A stretch of 64,000 nt of DNA, taken from NCBI RefSeq assembly GCF_024721175.1, contig NZ_CP099398.1, forward strand, positions 62,001-126,000, written 5' to 3'. The DNA is from Rhizobium sp. Pop5 (GTDB lineage: Bacteria; Pseudomonadota; Alphaproteobacteria; Rhizobiales; Rhizobiaceae). The position numbers and the translations under genes are program-made. A model generated the notes under the pieces. That model did not search any database, was not told the origin of the DNA, and saw only the letters and a program-made list of their open reading frames with translations. The number at the start of each line of letters is the position of its first letter. Within the stretch, counting starts at the first letter, position 1. This document shows, piece after piece, positions 34,879-45,075 of the stretch.

Positions 34879-36810
34879 TCAGCCCGGCCTTTGTTTGGAG
34901 CCGGCAGCGTTCCGGATTTGCCCGATCTCTCCGATGGTTTCGATCGTTATATCCCTGTCGATCTCCTCCGCCGCCAGCACCGGAATGCGGCAGTTGTGGT
35001 GGATCATCAGCGTCTGGGTGAGCAGGCGCCACTCGCCCGGCACGATGATGATGGGATCGTATCCCCGCTCGTTGGCGTCCTCGAGAGCCTGCCTGGCTTT
35101 CTCGGCCAGCAGGCGCAGCCTTTCGGCTATCTCGATCTTCTCGGTCGCTCCAGCGGCGTCATAGGAGCGGATGAAGTGGTCCCATTCGGCGGGAAGCACC
35201 AGCGCCGGCAGCAATCCGCGCCGGTCGAGAAGCCCGAAGGCGATCTGCTTGACCAGCGCGGCGCGCGCCATTTCGGCCAGGGCATCCGGCGCGTGATCGG
35301 TGCCGGCGTGCAGCATCACTTCCAGCAGTCCGCGCGGCTGGGAAAGCGTCACGCCGGAATCCAGCAGGCGTCTGACGACCGCGACCGTCAGCATCAGCGG
35401 CACCTGGGTGGCGACGTCGATCGCCAGTTTGCCGAGACGCGGTTCGAGGCTGCCCAGCCATTGTGCCGCGTCGTCGACGCTGAACAGGGCGCCGATATGG
35501 CGGCGGACGATGCGCACGATGTCGTCGGCAATCTGTTCGGCCGTCCGTTCGGGACCGCAGCTGACGAGACCGGCGGGCACGTTTTCGACCTGAAGGTGGA
35601 TCAGATCCTCGGCCATGCGGGGATCGGCGTTGAACGTCGGCACCGTCACGGAGACGCCGACGGCGCGCGCCGCCATGCGGATCCGCCCGTCCAGCATTTC
35701 GCCGAGTCGCATCGCCTCAAGCCGCGCCAGCGTTTCCACCGCGACGGTGGCGATGACGGGATCGCCATATTTCGTCCTGTCGAGCGGATAGGAATTGGCG
35801 CTTTCCACGGCATTTGCCGATCCGGCCGCGGCTGGGCCGGCGCGCCGGCGATGCACCATGAAGGCAAGGCCCGCCAGACACAGGCCGATCGCGCCGAGCA
35901 CGCCTGTGGGAAATCCCGGCACGAAGCCCGCGCAGATCGTCAGCGCCGCCGCAATCGCCAATGCACGGGGCTCCCGGAAGAGTTCGCGGCCGATATCGCT
36001 GCCGAGACTGCCGTTGCCGTCATCGGACACGCGGGTCACGACGATACCGGCCGAGACTGCCATCAGAATGGACGGAATCTGCGACACCAGACCGTCGCCG
36101 ATCGACAGCAGCGTATAGAGATGGGCGGCCTCGGCGAAGCTCAGGCCCTTCTGGAAGATACCGATCGCCAGGCCGCCGATGAGATTGACGGCGACGATCA
36201 CCAATCCTGCGACCGCATCGCCCTTGACGAAGCGCATCGCGCCGTCCATCGCCCCGAAGAACTGGCTCTCCTGTTCGAGGCGCGACCGGCGCTTCTGCGC
36301 GGCTTCCGTGGTGATATGGCCGTTACGCAGGTCGCTGTCGATGGCGAGCTGCTTGCCGGGCATGGCGTCGAGCGTGAAACGCGCGCCGACCTCGGCGATG
36401 CGCTCGGCGCCCTTCGTCACCACGATGAACTGCACCAGCGCCACGATCAGGAAAATGATCAGCCCGACGACGACATTTCCCGCAACGACGAAATCGCCGA
36501 AGGCCATGATGATCTCGCCGGCATCGGCGTCCGCCAGCACGAGCCGGGTCGAGGAAATCGTCAAGGCCAGGCGGAACAGCGTGCCGATCAGAATGACCGC
36601 GGGAAAGGTCGAGATTTCAAGCACGCTCTTCAGATAGGTCGTGGTGATCAGCACCACGAAAGCGAAGGAGAGATTGAAAGCGATCAGCACGTCCAGAACG
36701 ATTGTCGGAAGCGGCAGCACCAGCATCGTCACGACGGAGGCGAAAAACACCGCAAGCAGCATATCGGTGCGTTGCGCAAGCATGGCGATGGCGGATGACC
36801 TTACCTTCAT
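34879..36810 (-). CDS. sctV: T3SS export-gate protein SctV (HrcV/RhcV, FHIPEP family)
   Basis: 643 residues, slightly short for the family. Eight membrane helices fill the first ~320 residues, with the hallmark VLIAFNLSFAFVVLITTTYL, FPAVILIGTLFRLALTISST R and the FHIPEP-type cytoplasmic loop (ARFTLDAMPGKQLAIDSDLR NG). The soluble domain follows with YGDPVIATVAVETLARLEAM, and near the end NERGYDPIIIVPGEWRLLTQ. Nine copies form the cytoplasmic export ring. It is transcribed with sctD and the pilin candidate upstream, and ends 34 bases before the HrpW-like gene. Confidence 0.95.
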   Translation of the reverse strand: MKVRSSAIAMLAQRTDMLLAVFFASVVTMLVLPLPTIVLDVLIAFNLSFAFVVLITTTYLKSVLEISTFPAVILIGTLFRLALTISSTRLVLADADAGEIIMAFGDFVVAGNVVVGLIIFLIVALVQFIVVTKGAERIAEVGARFTLDAMPGKQLAIDSDLRNGHITTEAAQKRRSRLEQESQFFGAMDGAMRFVKGDAVAGLVIVAVNLIGGLAIGIFQKGLSFAEAAHLYTLLSIGDGLVSQIPSILMAVSAGIVVTRVSDDGNGSLGSDIGRELFREPRALAIAAALTICAGFVPGFPTGVLGAIGLCLAGLAFMVHRRRAGPAAAGSANAVESANSYPLDRTKYGDPVIATVAVETLARLEAMRLGEMLDGRIRMAARAVGVSVTVPTFNADPRMAEDLIHLQVENVPAGLVSCGPERTAEQIADDIVRIVRRHIGALFSVDDAAQWLGSLEPRLGKLAIDVATQVPLMLTVAVVRRLLDSGVTLSQPRGLLEVMLHAGTDHAPDALAEMARAALVKQIAFGLLDRRGLLPALVLPAEWDHFIRSYDAAGATEKIEIAERLRLLAEKARQALEDANERGYDPIIIVPGEWRLLTQTLMIHHNCRIPVLAAEEIDRDITIETIGEIGQIRNAAGSKQRPG

Positions 36811-40059: not shown

Positions 40060-40619
40060 ATTCAATAGCTTCGCTTTACGCTCGGACACTTGCCTCAAAA
40101 GCGAGAGGTCACGCTTCGGGCGGTAAAGTGGTCAGAAAACCAAAGGAGGTGCGATCAGCGGAACGCCCATTGCGAGGATTGTCTGCCCACTCTCCCGGAA
40201 GAGATGACGATGACACCTGGGAGAGCGCGGACGTCGTGGCGATCGAGGAGACGGACGATACCGTCACCGTACTTCTCTGGCATCTGAAATACTCGCAGGC
40301 AGTAATGGGGCGCCGGGCGGACGATCTTTACCTCGTTTGCGGTCAAGCACAGAAGGGGGTGAAGGGGACATGGAGCTTGAAGAACCTCATCAACCACCTG
40401 ACCGTGAGAGAAACATCACATCTTAAGGGCCGGGCCCGTTTCATTCGAGGCAGCCTGAATGACTTGGCCACGCTTCGAAAGGCTGCCCGACGCAAGTTCA
40501 TCGAGTACCGGATCGGGATTGTACAGCCGGGTCTTAACGGTGAAAACATACCCGCAGAACATCTTGCGCTTCTGGGAGCGACTGCCACTTCATACTGTCT
40601 GTCACCGGGTGTCCCCTAA
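40060..40619 (+). pseudogene. C-terminal fragment of a large protein, probably defence or helicase related
   Basis: An open frame without a good start codon reads TWESADVVAIEETDDTVTVL, YSQAVMGRRADDLYLVCGQA, QKGVKGTWSLKNLINHLTVR, and ends IIVQPGLNGENIP-like sequence (GIVQPGLNGENIPAEHLALL) with GATATSYCLSPGVP. I have seen such tails at the end of large DEAD/DEAH-type or phospholipase-D-type proteins, but I cannot name the family with confidence. The absent N-terminus and the lack of a ribosome-binding site suggest a truncated remnant. Confidence 0.4.
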
Positions 40620-40873
40620 TGACTGTCGCGAACCGCACCGATCCAGCTTAGCTGCCGGCCACCGTCTCCAGCGGCGCTACTTTCCATGACGGCAGGGCCG
40701 CCGCGAACTGTCACGGCCTTCTTGGGGCTTTCGATATCGAAATTGACGTTGTAGCGGTTCCACTCTGTAACAGCGGCAGAGCCGCCGACAAAATCAGGGG
40801 TAGGAATGCTCGATGTCCTGCCGATTGTTGCGGCGGGTGCATAGCTGCAGTGCAACATAGACGCTGGCTTCAT
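40616..40873 (-). CDS. small hypothetical protein
   Basis: 85 residues, beginning MKPASMLHCSYAPAATIGRT and containing TPDFVGGSAAVTEWNRYNVN FDIESPKKAVTVRG, which looks like real protein. The start is weak and the N-terminus may have been damaged. Family unknown. It converges with the fragment above, overlapping it by four bases, and lies just before the small RNA. Confidence 0.35.
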   Translation of the reverse strand: MKPASMLHCSYAPAATIGRTSSIPTPDFVGGSAAVTEWNRYNVNFDIESPKKAVTVRGGPAVMESSAAGDGGRQLSWIGAVRDSH

Positions 40874-40900
40874 GGCGCTGGCCCGAGTATTGCTATTTTC

Positions 40901-41057
40901 ATCGAAGCGATGCTTCCTCCCGCAACGCTTCGAAGTTTAGACGGCCCACTCCTCCTCCCAAAGGGACGTCTGTGGGAACAGCGGCACTCCTCCTCCCAGG
41001 TCGCCGTTCGGTTCTTTTAGGAAAGCCTGCCGCACCTCCTCCCGCGGCAGGCTTTTC
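40901..41057 (+). ncRNA. four-hairpin small RNA with anti-Shine-Dalgarno loops (cuckoo-like)
   Basis: Four consecutive hairpins, each with a C-rich loop. (1) CGAAGCG pairs CGCTTCG, loop with CTTCCTCCC. (2) AGACGGCCC pairs GGGACGTCT with one mismatch, loop ACTCCTCCTCCCAAA. (3) AACAGCGGC pairs GTCGCCGTT with one mismatch and one wobble, loop ACTCCTCCTCCCAG. (4) AAAGCCTGCCGC pairs GCGGCAGGCTTT perfectly, loop ACCTCCTCCC, followed by TTCTATTTC, an intrinsic terminator. CCTCCTCCC is complementary to ribosome-binding sites. This is the architecture of the alphaproteobacterial cuckoo family of small RNAs. The strand is set by the terminal T-run; the other strand would show G-rich loops. Confidence 0.75.
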
Positions 41058-41090
41058 TATTTCGGGGCGATGGGCCGTCAGAGCCCGAGA

Positions 41091-41180
41091 TCAAGTTGGG
41101 ACTGGGGTCGTGCATTGCCGATCGGAGGTCGTCAGCGTTGAAAGCGTGACGCCGAGCAGCCGCACTGGCCGCTTGAATGG
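41091..41180 (-). pseudogene. DNA polymerase IV (DinB) C-terminal scrap
   Basis: The minus strand reads PFKRPVRLLGVTLSTLTTSD RQCTT and stops at 41091-41093. RPVRLLGVTLS is the characteristic end of DinB-type polymerases. Nothing of the catalytic palm remains upstream, so this is a leftover of a deletion. Confidence 0.5.
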
Positions 41181-41580
41181 ATAGACAGTCGCCAATCGAC
41201 GGGGCATCGTTCGATGGTGTGCTCGAAGATCTTGGCTGGTTCGGCAAACGGTTCACGCCGGACATGCGCGCCGATGTGCTGCTGTTTCGAGCGGGAGACC
41301 GGCGGCTGGTTGCCGTGGATCCCAAATGGATCCCGCTTCGGCTAACGTTGCGTTTTTATAAGATCGACAGGACGCGTGTGGCAAGCAACCAAGTTTTCCT
41401 ATCTCCAGCGCCGGCTGCGGGCGAGGGCCCGGTCGCGTCTTTGAAGGCCATGATGTTCGGCTGCGTCAAGAGCGCGGCCATGGTCTATGACGATCAACCC
41501 ATCGTCGACCATTTCCGGCGGATCGACGCCGAGAGGATCATGGGCGCGAAATTTCGCTCTGCGCAAGTAAGGCACGAACC
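41177..41580 (+). pseudogene. DUF4334 (GXWXG-type) protein fragment
   Basis: FDGVLEDLGWFGKRFTPDMR ADVLLFRAGDRRLVAVDPKW IPLRLTLRF, then YDDQPIVDHFRRIDAERIMG, are readable in one frame with a disturbed stretch in the middle where a short frameshift and its compensation seem to occur. The N-terminal GXWXG half is missing and the C-terminus is replaced. It is a relic of a small stand-alone protein of unknown role. Confidence 0.5.
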
Positions 41581-41623
41581 GTCGAGACGGCAGTTCCTAA
41601 TGAGCTCATCGAAAGGTCATATC

Positions 41624-41749
41624 ATGCTGAAATACAAGCTCTACGTACTCGTGGTAAAAGCCGACGGGAATCTCGCGATCCTCGCCGCGCTTGCCATGGT
41701 TCTTACCGCGATATGGCGCGGCGTTTTACCCATAGGAAGTTTCTACTGA
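41624..41749 (+). CDS. very small membrane protein candidate
   Basis: 41 residues from ATG 41624, with GAAAGG about nine bases upstream. The product begins MLKYKLYVLVVKADGNLAIL and ends with a hydrophobic helix (LAALAMVLTAIWRGVLPIG). It is in frame with the DUF4334 fragment upstream, which weakens the case, but the start context and single membrane helix are consistent with an independent small gene. Confidence 0.3.
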   Translation: MLKYKLYVLVVKADGNLAILAALAMVLTAIWRGVLPIGSFY

Positions 41750-41818: not shown

Positions 41819-42568
41819 CTATCTCTCACGCGCAACAGCGGAAACGACAAGGTCTGTCATTTGAGAGTTACCCGGAGCGCCCCACCAGTCGCAGAGGGAC
41901 AGGTAGGAGAAGTCGCTCACACTGTCACCGTAGCCGATCACTGGGCGACCTGGATGCTCCGTCCGAAGCTTTTTGAGCAGAAATTGTGAGGCCACCCGTT
42001 TTGAGATCGCAGGCGGAACTAGCGCAAGGTTATTGCCGTTGTGGTGTCGAACCCAACCCCGTTTTTCTCGAATGATCGGCACAATCTCTTCAAGGCGTGA
42101 GCCGTCTCCGTCAATCTCTTTGAAGACAACATATGTCGCGAGATCAGCTTCCATCACCGACCAGCACCGGATGTGGACGCCAAGTTCCCTCGCCTTGGTC
42201 CTGCCCTCATCGAGGAGCTTATCGAAAAAGCCGGCAAGCGGCCGGAGCTCCCTTGCGACGACCTCATGCCATTCGGCGTCAGGCTTGCCGTCCTTTTTGA
42301 GGATGACGGCACCGTTCGATACGATTGAGTAGCTTTCAAACGCGATCGTAACGCGCGAAAGAGCCTCAGAGCCGCGCGCCGTAACCGGGATGGCCTCCGT
42401 GGAGACGAGCAGCCACTCGACAAAGGCAGCTTGAATCTTCGTCATATAGGAGTTGCTTCCATTAATGGATTTGGACGCCAATACCAGATCGGCTTCCGCA
42501 ATCTCCGGTATCTTTTTCTTGGTTTGAAACAAGGTGTCGTCGAGGTCCACCAGAGCAATGGGCTTCAT
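41819..42568 (-). CDS. HAD-superfamily hydrolase of the StiP/PRTase module
   Basis: 249 residues starting MKPIALVDLDDTLFQTKKKI; DLDDTLF holds the nucleophile Asp and the acid/base Asp. Motif II Ser/Thr is in IPVTARG, and the acidic motif IV is PVIGYGDSVSDFSYLSL. The cap between resembles Cof-type phosphatases. It is last in a three-gene minus-strand set with a StiP protein and a phosphoribosyltransferase. Such trios accompany tellurite-resistance (ter) loci, where they are thought to make or hydrolyse a nucleotide-like molecule; the exact substrate is unknown. Confidence 0.8.
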   Translation of the reverse strand: MKPIALVDLDDTLFQTKKKIPEIAEADLVLASKSINGSNSYMTKIQAAFVEWLLVSTEAIPVTARGSEALSRVTIAFESYSIVSNGAVILKKDGKPDAEWHEVVARELRPLAGFFDKLLDEGRTKARELGVHIRCWSVMEADLATYVVFKEIDGDGSRLEEIVPIIREKRGWVRHHNGNNLALVPPAISKRVASQFLLKKLRTEHPGRPVIGYGDSVSDFSYLSLCDWWGAPGNSQMTDLVVSAVARER

Positions 42569-42726
42569 ATGCGTACTCCAAAATGCGACTGGTTAAATAT
42601 CTGATCGATTGCCAGATGTGAGCTTTCGCGGATTCTCCATTGGCAATGAATTTTACGATACGGAATTTGTCACATCTCAGTTTCCTTGACCTGCGCGCCG
42701 AGCTCGTAAGTAGACATACGTGGAGA

Positions 42727-43827
42727 TTAGGAGACGTGCCGGATCAGCGTGACGGCGCGGTAGGGGGCGATCTTTCTAGGGGAGACGACATACGGGACGC
42801 CTTTGTTGTCGATCAGGTACATGAGGGCCGCGAGTTCTGGATCGGTTGGCGACGAGACGTACACCTTTTCCGGCACACGTCGCAGGATGGCTCTGGTCGC
42901 CTCCGCAATGCCCGGCTTTACTCGGTTGATGTTCGTTACGGCGTCCTCCCCCATCACCCAGGCGACGGCAGCGGCGGCGGCATCGCGATGCGCCCGGCGG
43001 GTCTCGATACTCCAGACGCTCGGGATTTCGGTTGCAATCACAGTGGAGACATCATTCCACATACCATCCACGAATGATCGGGAAATATCGTGTTCCGCGA
43101 GATTATCCCACTGGACGCAGGCGTGGAAGTCACCGGGACCGACGAGGGCAGCGTTGAGGATCGAGCGGCTGATAAGCCCGGATACGGTGCATCCTAGCAT
43201 TCCGGAGGGAATAAGCCAGTCGTCGCCCGATGCGGCGAGCCATGCGCAGCCGCAGGGGTCGGCCAATACAACTAGCCGCGCAGGCCGGTCTGAGTAGTCC
43301 TTGAAGCTCTTTTCGAGTTGGTTCGCAATTGCTCCTTTGCCCGTCCAGCTATCTACGAAGACGATGCTCTCGACAGGACGCCTGGCAAGAATGTGGCGCA
43401 TAGCCTCGTCGTCAACGCCCTTGTCGCGAATGATCGACAACCCGTAGTGTCCGACGTCCCGGCCGAGTAAGGCGATGGCCCTCTTGAGAAGGATGCCGAA
43501 GGGCACGCCGGCGCGGACCAAACTGACAAGGGTAATAGGACCCTCGACCGACTGCACGATCGCGAGGGCGAGGCGTGCCGTCTCGGCGCCCATGCGCGGG
43601 CCACCAGTGGCCATGGCCTTAGCAAACAGCTCCATGTATTCGCGGGTCGGGGCCATCTCGGCGGAAATCATTTCCGAGTAATGCCGCCGCCCGGATTGGA
43701 TGGCCTCTTCCCTCGTGGCCGTGTCAGTAGGCTGAATATCCACTCTCTTGAGAAGGAGCGTCACGTCGTATTCGGCGTAGGAGCCTAGTGTGGCAGGGGA
43801 GGCGATGCTGTCATAGGTATCCCCCAT
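42727..43827 (-). CDS. StiP-family protein (putative cysteine protease/RNA-binding)
   Basis: 366 residues. Recognisable family segments are YDSIASPATLGSYAEYDVTL LLKRVDI at the N-terminus, ISAEMAPTREYMELFAKAM, LVSLVRAGVPFGILLKRA, VDSWTGKGAIANQL (a phosphoribosyl-binding-like loop) and ADPCGCAWLAASGDDWLIPS GMLGCTVSGLISRS containing the conserved Cys residues. Soluble. It lies between the PRTase and HAD genes on the same strand with gaps of 114 and 158 bases, so an operon is likely. Molecular function is predicted, not established. Confidence 0.78.
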   Translation of the reverse strand: MGDTYDSIASPATLGSYAEYDVTLLLKRVDIQPTDTATREEAIQSGRRHYSEMISAEMAPTREYMELFAKAMATGGPRMGAETARLALAIVQSVEGPITLVSLVRAGVPFGILLKRAIALLGRDVGHYGLSIIRDKGVDDEAMRHILARRPVESIVFVDSWTGKGAIANQLEKSFKDYSDRPARLVVLADPCGCAWLAASGDDWLIPSGMLGCTVSGLISRSILNAALVGPGDFHACVQWDNLAEHDISRSFVDGMWNDVSTVIATEIPSVWSIETRRAHRDAAAAAVAWVMGEDAVTNINRVKPGIAEATRAILRRVPEKVYVSSPTDPELAALMYLIDNKGVPYVVSPRKIAPYRAVTLIRHVS

Positions 43828-43941
43828 GGGAGTGATGTCCTTAGGTAACGCGACAGCAGTGTTGTGTCGCTGTGGACTGGCGGAAATGTCCGATCGAGTG
43901 AGCCGATTTCGAAGCGGCAGACCGCATGGCCTAAGGCGGCT

Positions 43942-45075
43942 TCATTCACCTTCTACGTCTGAAAGGACAATGGGATCGCCCAGTGCGGACATCAGGCTGG
44001 CACAGACATTTTCCGGGCCTGTCTCCGAGCAGAGTATAATTTTCGAGTACAGCGCTGGATCGACGTTGTAGAGGTAATGTGGAACCGTTCCGCCGTAGTT
44101 GTCGGAGAACGAAAGTACTGAACCGATCGCGTGGCCTTTCGACAGGGGAGAACGCGTCACGGATGAATAGAAAACCTCAGCGCCCTCCTTTTCCAAGCGC
44201 TCCGCAAGCAGGAAGGGCTGCCACACGTGTTCGCCCGTTCCGAGTACGAGGGTAATCCCGTCATCGGCAGCGTTTGCATTGAGACCCTGCAAGTGATCGA
44301 CGACGCCGAGACGCGCCCAGTCTCGAGCGACGTCGGGACAGACCTCGGGCCGCTTAGGACGGTCACAGGAAGGGACCTGCGGAGTAGCTGCCGTGAAATC
44401 CCCACGCGGAGTCCAACTGTACCGTCCGGAAACGATAGTAGCCTCACTGACTGTTCCCGTGATCTCCGCGCGGGCAGCGCCTTCTGACCAGTCGGTAAGC
44501 GTAAGTAGGACTGTGTGCTTCAGCTTCAAACGAATTTTTGCAGGAAGGGCAGCGAAGATGTTGGCAAATGTCTTACCTGTCGAAGCCTCATCGTCAACGA
44601 GTACCAAGCCGGTCGCACCATGAACCAAGTCGCGGAGCCTTGCCTCGCATGGTTCGTGCAGGAGGTGCCGCGGGGCATGGCTATGCTCTTCCTCAAATTC
44701 GCACAGCAGCGGCAGTTTAAGATCATGGCGAGTGGAGCAGATATATATTGCATCGCCGCGACCAGTGAGTTCGCGGAACCGCCGATGGACACCCGCACCA
44801 AGGCCAATGCCCGCTTCGGCTATTCCGATGAACAAAACCGGACCAGGAATATCGGCAGGAATCTGACGTGCAAGGAGGTCGAATGCATTTCCCATGACCG
44901 AAGGGCGGATCGGCAGGAATCGACCAAGAACCTTGGAAACAAACAGAAACGAGCGGTTCGGGTTGATTCGCTGCCCGAAGCCGAACATCTCGATGGGGGG
45001 TACAAGGCTTCGATCCACGTGAACCGAGATAGTGCCGTCGGCGAGTTGCGCAGAGTATGTTGAAGGATTCACCAT
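43942..45075 (-). CDS. phosphoribosyltransferase-domain protein (PRTase-2/TRSP type)
   Basis: 377 residues. The phosphoribosyl-binding loop is GLVLVDDEASTGKTFANIF, the classic type I PRTase motif. An N-terminal VLFIGIAEAGIGLGAGVHR segment and a C-terminal TRSP-like region (TLVLGTGEHVWQPFLLAERL) match the double-domain protein of ter-linked modules. It opens the three-gene set on the minus strand. The start is uncertain: ATG 45075 is followed at once by an alternative GTG, and the ribosome-binding site is poor. Confidence 0.75.
   Translation of the reverse strand: MVNPSTYSAQLADGTISVHVDRSLVPPIEMFGFGQRINPNRSFLFVSKVLGRFLPIRPSVMGNAFDLLARQIPADIPGPVLFIGIAEAGIGLGAGVHRRFRELTGRGDAIYICSTRHDLKLPLLCEFEEEHSHAPRHLLHEPCEARLRDLVHGATGLVLVDDEASTGKTFANIFAALPAKIRLKLKHTVLLTLTDWSEGAARAEITGTVSEATIVSGRYSWTPRGDFTAATPQVPSCDRPKRPEVCPDVARDWARLGVVDHLQGLNANAADDGITLVLGTGEHVWQPFLLAERLEKEGAEVFYSSVTRSPLSKGHAIGSVLSFSDNYGGTVPHYLYNVDPALYSKIILCSETGPENVCASLMSALGDPIVLSDVEGE

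Follow-up and report, generated by a model that had tools for sequence, protein, structure and literature searches.

Which RNA, if any, is encoded by the hairpin-rich stretch at 40901..41057 on the plus strand, and which mRNAs might it act upon? A sequence-only reading had proposed a small RNA of four hairpins, each loop of which carries an anti-Shine-Dalgarno (anti-SD) sequence, located on a mobile region next to a type III secretion system (T3SS). We therefore followed up this proposal in the window, i.e. the whole stretch of 64,000 nucleotides of Rhizobium sp. Pop5 DNA that was analysed. The RNA is real and well conserved, and it represents an already described family in an already described four-hairpin form. 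We are confident that the stretch encodes an αr14/cuckoo RNA which resides on a symbiosis plasmid and is homologous to SmelA099; it would repress several mRNAs through its C-rich loops.

Hairpin architecture and family assignment

The minimum free energy of the segment 40890-41070 is -74.5 compared to a mean of -56.4 for shuffled sequences (z = -4.25), and none of 200 dinucleotide shuffles reaches an energy as low. Folding and shuffle test thus bear out the four adjacent hairpins at 40901..41057, all of which lie on the plus strand. H1 (40902-40933) consists of 8+3 pairs and H2 (40938-40972) of 6+3 pairs, H3 comprises 10 pairs within its family-consensus limits (40976-41009), and H4 (41018-41059) has 16 pairs. 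The loops read CTTCCTCCC in H1, CTCCTCCTCCC in both H2 and H3, and CCTCCTCCC in H4. As had been claimed for the last stem, H4 is intrinsic-terminator-like and is followed by a T-rich tail; it would end the transcript.

The assumption that every loop carries an anti-SD sequence stands for H2 to H4 with their CCUCCUCCC motif, but only in part for H1, whose motif is shortened to CTTCCTCCC. At this loop position 17 of 24 aligned rows show CACCTCCTCCC, compared to which the window copy is two bases short. CCTCCTCCC occurs three times on the plus strand of the window, in each case inside H2-H4, and not once on the minus strand, which was searched over the whole window. Folded alone, H3 of the window copy is longer (40974-41016), and part of its loop is self-paired.

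A covariance-model search against Rfam returned a single match at gathering cut-offs in the whole window, namely αr14 (RF02344) at 40933-41059 on the plus strand, which covers model positions 1-123 of 123 with 97.1 bits (gathering cut-off 58.8). H1 lies outside the model. The full-length match bears out the suspected cuckoo/αr14-type identity. CcsR1 (RF02791) was rejected at 17.2 bits against a cut-off of 65.3, as were ar7, mraW, Thr_leader and the other Rfam candidates of the region, all of which fall below their cut-offs. The study from which the cuckoo RNAs take their name reportedly gives 2 to 4 hairpins in its abstract.

The αr14 family is that of NfeR1, whose members are described with three hairpins, each bearing the CCUCCUCCC anti-SD motif (PMC10746234). 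A four-hairpin form has been published for SmelA099 of the S. meliloti plasmid pSymA (PMC3927594, section 2.7), and relatives of SmelA099 are reported there in both R. etli genomes, along with local synteny in R. leguminosarum. SmelA099 was recorded as a sequenced transcript contig of 160 nt at pSymA 1328175-1328334, minus strand (PMC7143759, PMC2873474). Window positions 40898-41056 are 78% identical to pSymA, and the S. meliloti 2011 record aligns identically. Hereby, the 5' end of SmelA099 (1328334) maps to window position 40900 and the 3' end (1328175) to about 41060, from which the small RNA of about 160 nt is placed at 40901..41060 on the plus strand.

Four copies of the motif in one transcript had been regarded as special. 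This view finds no support, since four-hairpin members are published and a four-hairpin query of 167 bases matches all 148 genomes of the genus at E ≤ 0.001. Among the matches listed, 132 of the 148 genomes reach E ≤ 1e-30 and 16 are weaker, which is not in itself proof of 132 four-hairpin loci; every listed match covers nearly all 167 bases. αr14 itself is found above cut-off in 148/148 genomes. The genome of Rhizobium sp. Pop5 holds six αr14 copies above cut-off and one weak match, and the fourth hairpin is present in the window copy and in a copy on contig C3 (L003).

Covariation among homologues

Twenty-six loci were compared, and an alignment (A1) of 24 rows, window included, was used to count paired cells and compensatory changes in the RNAalifold consensus. 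L038, which equals the window, L062, which is the L041 locus of another strain, and L046, which is close to L045, were left out. The loci were chosen from best and spread hit lists, plus L003 and SmelA099, and do not constitute a random sample.

In the 24 sequences 97.7% of 979 cells are paired, and changes on both sides are seen in 11 of 41 pairs. Neither value was reached by any of 500 shuffles, and the maxima among slid versions were 53.0% and 6. A weaker count, that of further pair types, was matched by 8 of the 500 shuffles. Compensatory changes in the stems of homologues, which the sequence-only reading had named as bearing on its structure, are found in H2 (5 of 9 pairs), H3 (5 of 10) and, with one pair, H4 (1 of 14 counted), but not in H1 (0 of 8 counted), where six of the pairs are invariant and hence uninformative. 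Owing to these per-hairpin counts, the structure is backed by covariation for H2 and H3 and weakly for H4. A model built from A1 gives 162.6-178.2 bits for three four-hairpin loci, all three of which are inside the model, compared to 84.3-95.3 bits for nine other αr14 loci, 45.2 for L006 and 16.9 for L007.

Promoter and extent of the transcript

As the Rfam model spans only 40933-41059 and H1 is devoid of covariation, only the last three hairpins might be transcribed, yielding a standard αr14 RNA with H1 as upstream DNA. We consider this very improbable, given that H1 is strongly conserved across the 24 aligned sequences, that SmelA099 begins at the position equivalent to 40900, and that a promoter motif holds its distance to the start of H1. 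In 23 of the 24 rows, L061 being the exception, a relaxed GCATAGCTGCANTGCA motif precedes the start of the RNA by 60-62 bases, and this fixed spacing argues that H1 is transcribed.

In the window the element reads GCATAGCTGCAGTGCAA (40839..40855, plus strand); it precedes the putative start by 62 bases and resembles a LysR-type site, to which a regulator may bind. A -10-like stretch is recognizable by eye at a similar place across the rows. The putative -10 element of the window is TATTGC (40888..40893, plus strand), in place of which several homologues show TATGAT, and a clear -35 is not evident by eye upstream of the RNA. We infer that the four-hairpin RNA would be transcribed in Rhizobium sp. 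Pop5 from a sigma-70-type promoter with a start at about 40901.

In S. meliloti, LsrB acts at -72 to -57 of the nfeR1 promoter, with TGCA-N6-GCAT as motif (PMC10746234). The window motif at -62 resembles this published motif but is not identical to it. The likeness suggests control by a LsrB-like activator of the LysR type, which may operate under stress or in symbiosis.

A hypothetical gene annotated on p42d, RHE_RS29785 (40616-40873, minus strand), overlaps the RNA promoter. It has no Pfam match, and 40 plasmid records match the stretch 40616-40900; the gene call may be spurious.

Plasmid setting and neighbouring genes

With a query of 261 bases, 535 of 72,556 plasmid records match, 34 of them at 99% identity or above, and R. 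etli CFN42 p42d matches at 100%, window position 40901 corresponding to 77636 of p42d. Phaseolus vulgaris is given as source in 30 of these 34 records, and four name none. With these matches, the window represents a copy of the symbiotic plasmid of R. etli/phaseoli. The notion of a mobile region proved apt, as the carrier plasmid (p42d) is typed as conjugative.

At the position of the match no RNA gene is annotated in the plasmid records inspected, whose gene table is devoid of RNA genes altogether. For R. etli, 89 candidate ncRNAs have been reported, some of them on the symbiotic plasmid (PMC3188799, PMC2881028, PMC4167512); in the accessible parts of these transcript papers, supplement lists aside, the present locus is not named. 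For NfeR1 of S. meliloti six loci are listed, of which one is reliably visible on northern blots (PMC7143759), and the window copy could therefore be weakly expressed.

Directly downstream of the RNA lies a DUF4334 gene (41177-41749, plus strand) with a weak partial GXWXG match, and a DUF4334 gene is also close to the copy of Sinorhizobium sp. C101. Further on, a hypothetical gene, a StiP/PELOTA gene and a phosphoribosyltransferase gene stand in a row on the minus strand (41819-45075), the first of which has no Pfam match and looks HAD-like by eye.

In 13 of the 24 aligned loci, including the C3 copy of the same genome, the RNA is directly preceded by a DUF1127 gene. Near the window RNA neither such a gene nor a remnant was detected by tblastn with five DUF1127 proteins, the best window hit (E 0.60) being at about 55.7 kb, and a Pfam search of the genome placed DUF1127 nowhere on contig C1. 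In Rhodobacter sphaeroides a DUF1127 gene and a CcsR-like RNA make up the 'CIN1 locus', and ccaF1 and CcsR are co-transcribed (PMC10253847). In the 13 loci, a terminator-like hairpin, identified by eye and by folding for L003, separates the DUF1127 gene from the RNA promoter, so that gene and RNA look separately transcribed, unlike ccaF1-CcsR.

In L003, where it precedes the start of the RNA by about 139 bases, this hairpin has a TTCCTCCC loop and resembles a fifth anti-SD hairpin. The corresponding loop reads TTTCTCC in L053 and differs, mostly by eye, in the other 11 DUF1127-bearing loci. At L004 (contig C2 of the same genome) two DUF1127 genes (941-1084 and 515-637) follow the αr14 copy on the same strand, and the RNA model gives a further, weak match at 857-975.

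The shortened first loop and the missing DUF1127 neighbour would also fit a decaying plasmid paralogue. Such decay is unlikely in view of the three intact CCTCCTCCC loops and the kept promoter motif. Moreover, fewer than four intact loops are common: four are present in 16 of the 24 rows, three in six including the window, two in one and none in one. The extra H3 base of the window copy recurs in five other rows, and the 34 plasmid records at 99% or above likewise speak against decay, although they perhaps reflect mostly the recent spread of one plasmid.

Candidate targets

For a functional αr14 copy with C-rich loops, pairing with the GGAGG-rich ribosome-binding sites (RBSs) of several mRNAs, probably those of transporter genes first, would lower translation by analogy with NfeR1. 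Predicted NfeR1 targets are mostly transport genes (PMC10746234, PMC7143759), and NfeR1 lowers ntrB expression, an effect that is lost when all three of its loops are mutated (PMC10746234, section 8).

The pattern GGGAGGAG-N3-9-ATG occurs 53 times in the genome compared to 6 times for a reversed control pattern, an excess which is expected for strong RBSs and alone is no proof of regulation. The window contains two such sites against 0.21 expected, a number reached by 2 of 100 shuffles; for GGAGGA-N3-10-ATG and GGGAGG-N4-11-ATG the window shows no excess over chance. The two sites, both on the plus strand, precede the hypothetical gene RHE_RS29855 (60221..60237) and the ABC-transporter substrate-binding gene RHE_RS29865 (61522..61539; both p42d names), which belong to one row of same-strand genes and represent possible targets.

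We ranked 33 annotated p42d starts, one of which reads ATT, by predicted loop pairing alone, site accessibility standing outside the ranking. For the H2 loop the two GGGAGGAG sites rank first and second and sctT third, and for the H4 loop the transporter gene is first and sctT second. The start of sctT/FliR leads for the H1 loop, and the hypothetical gene RHE_RS29780 does so for H3. A more specific scenario holds that a DUF1127-linked four-hairpin RNA became a stand-alone regulator of the bean-symbiosis plasmid, which lost the DUF1127 gene but retained the stress-type promoter as well as three complete loops. Such a regulator would control the ABC-transporter row of the same plasmid (from about 60235) via the two GGGAGGAG RBSs. 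We put this forward as a specific but unlikely proposal.

The sequence-only reading had placed the RNA next to a T3SS and suggested that it may tune genes of the host plasmid. T3SS genes annotated on p42d do lie upstream of the RNA, with sctV (FlhA-like) about 4 kb away at 34879-36810, and the sctT start is predicted to pair well. A specific action of the RNA on the adjacent T3SS is nonetheless highly unlikely: predicted pairing does not point to the T3SS in particular, the six T3SS starts other than sctT rank 13th or lower of 33 for the H2 loop, and a T3SS gene is present in 0 of 16 annotated homologous loci (of 24, eight being without usable annotation), many of which have short flanks, ten of them 2.5 kb on each side compared to the distance of 4 kb seen here.

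The H4 loop contains CACCUCCU, which we take to be the 16S anti-SD core. Together with the apparent redundancy of the loops, this would agree with an RNA that mainly acts as a decoy of the 16S rRNA 3' end or as a sponge instead of pairing with particular mRNAs. Such a role has very little probability, because loop-dependent repression of a specific mRNA has been demonstrated for NfeR1 (PMC10746234), and we retain repression of several mRNAs by an αr14/cuckoo copy as the preferred reading.

Relation to known systems

For annotation purposes, the present work places a four-hairpin family on a widely shared Phaseolus symbiotic plasmid, and it offers a lead on a plasmid-borne RNA copy possibly acting on transport genes in nodules. 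It also illustrates that a sequence scan picks up real regulatory RNAs, although no new kind of system is opened. Added here are the covariation of H2-H4, the spacing of the promoter motif, the shortened first loop and the lack of an adjoining DUF1127 gene.

Compared to CcsR1-4/CcaF1 of Rhodobacter sphaeroides, the loop motif is common to both and a DUF1127 gene lies upstream in 13 of 24 aligned loci, whereas the window RNA has no such neighbour and scores only 17.2 bits with the CcsR1 model. The αr14 RNAs NfeR1/SmelC397/Smr14C2 correspond to the window RNA in the last three hairpins, the loops and the terminator; the window RNA differs by one extra 5' hairpin and by a promoter motif that is similar, not identical. 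SmelA075 has the loop motif in common with the window RNA but possesses three hairpins, and its authors proposed SmelA075 and SmelA099 as one family (PMC3927594, section 2.7). The closest counterpart is SmelA099/RFMSmelA099, which resides on a different plasmid and has a first loop two bases longer than that of the window copy, and which matches it in its four hairpins, CCUCCUCCC-type loops, variable stems, length of about 160 nt and plasmid-borne location.
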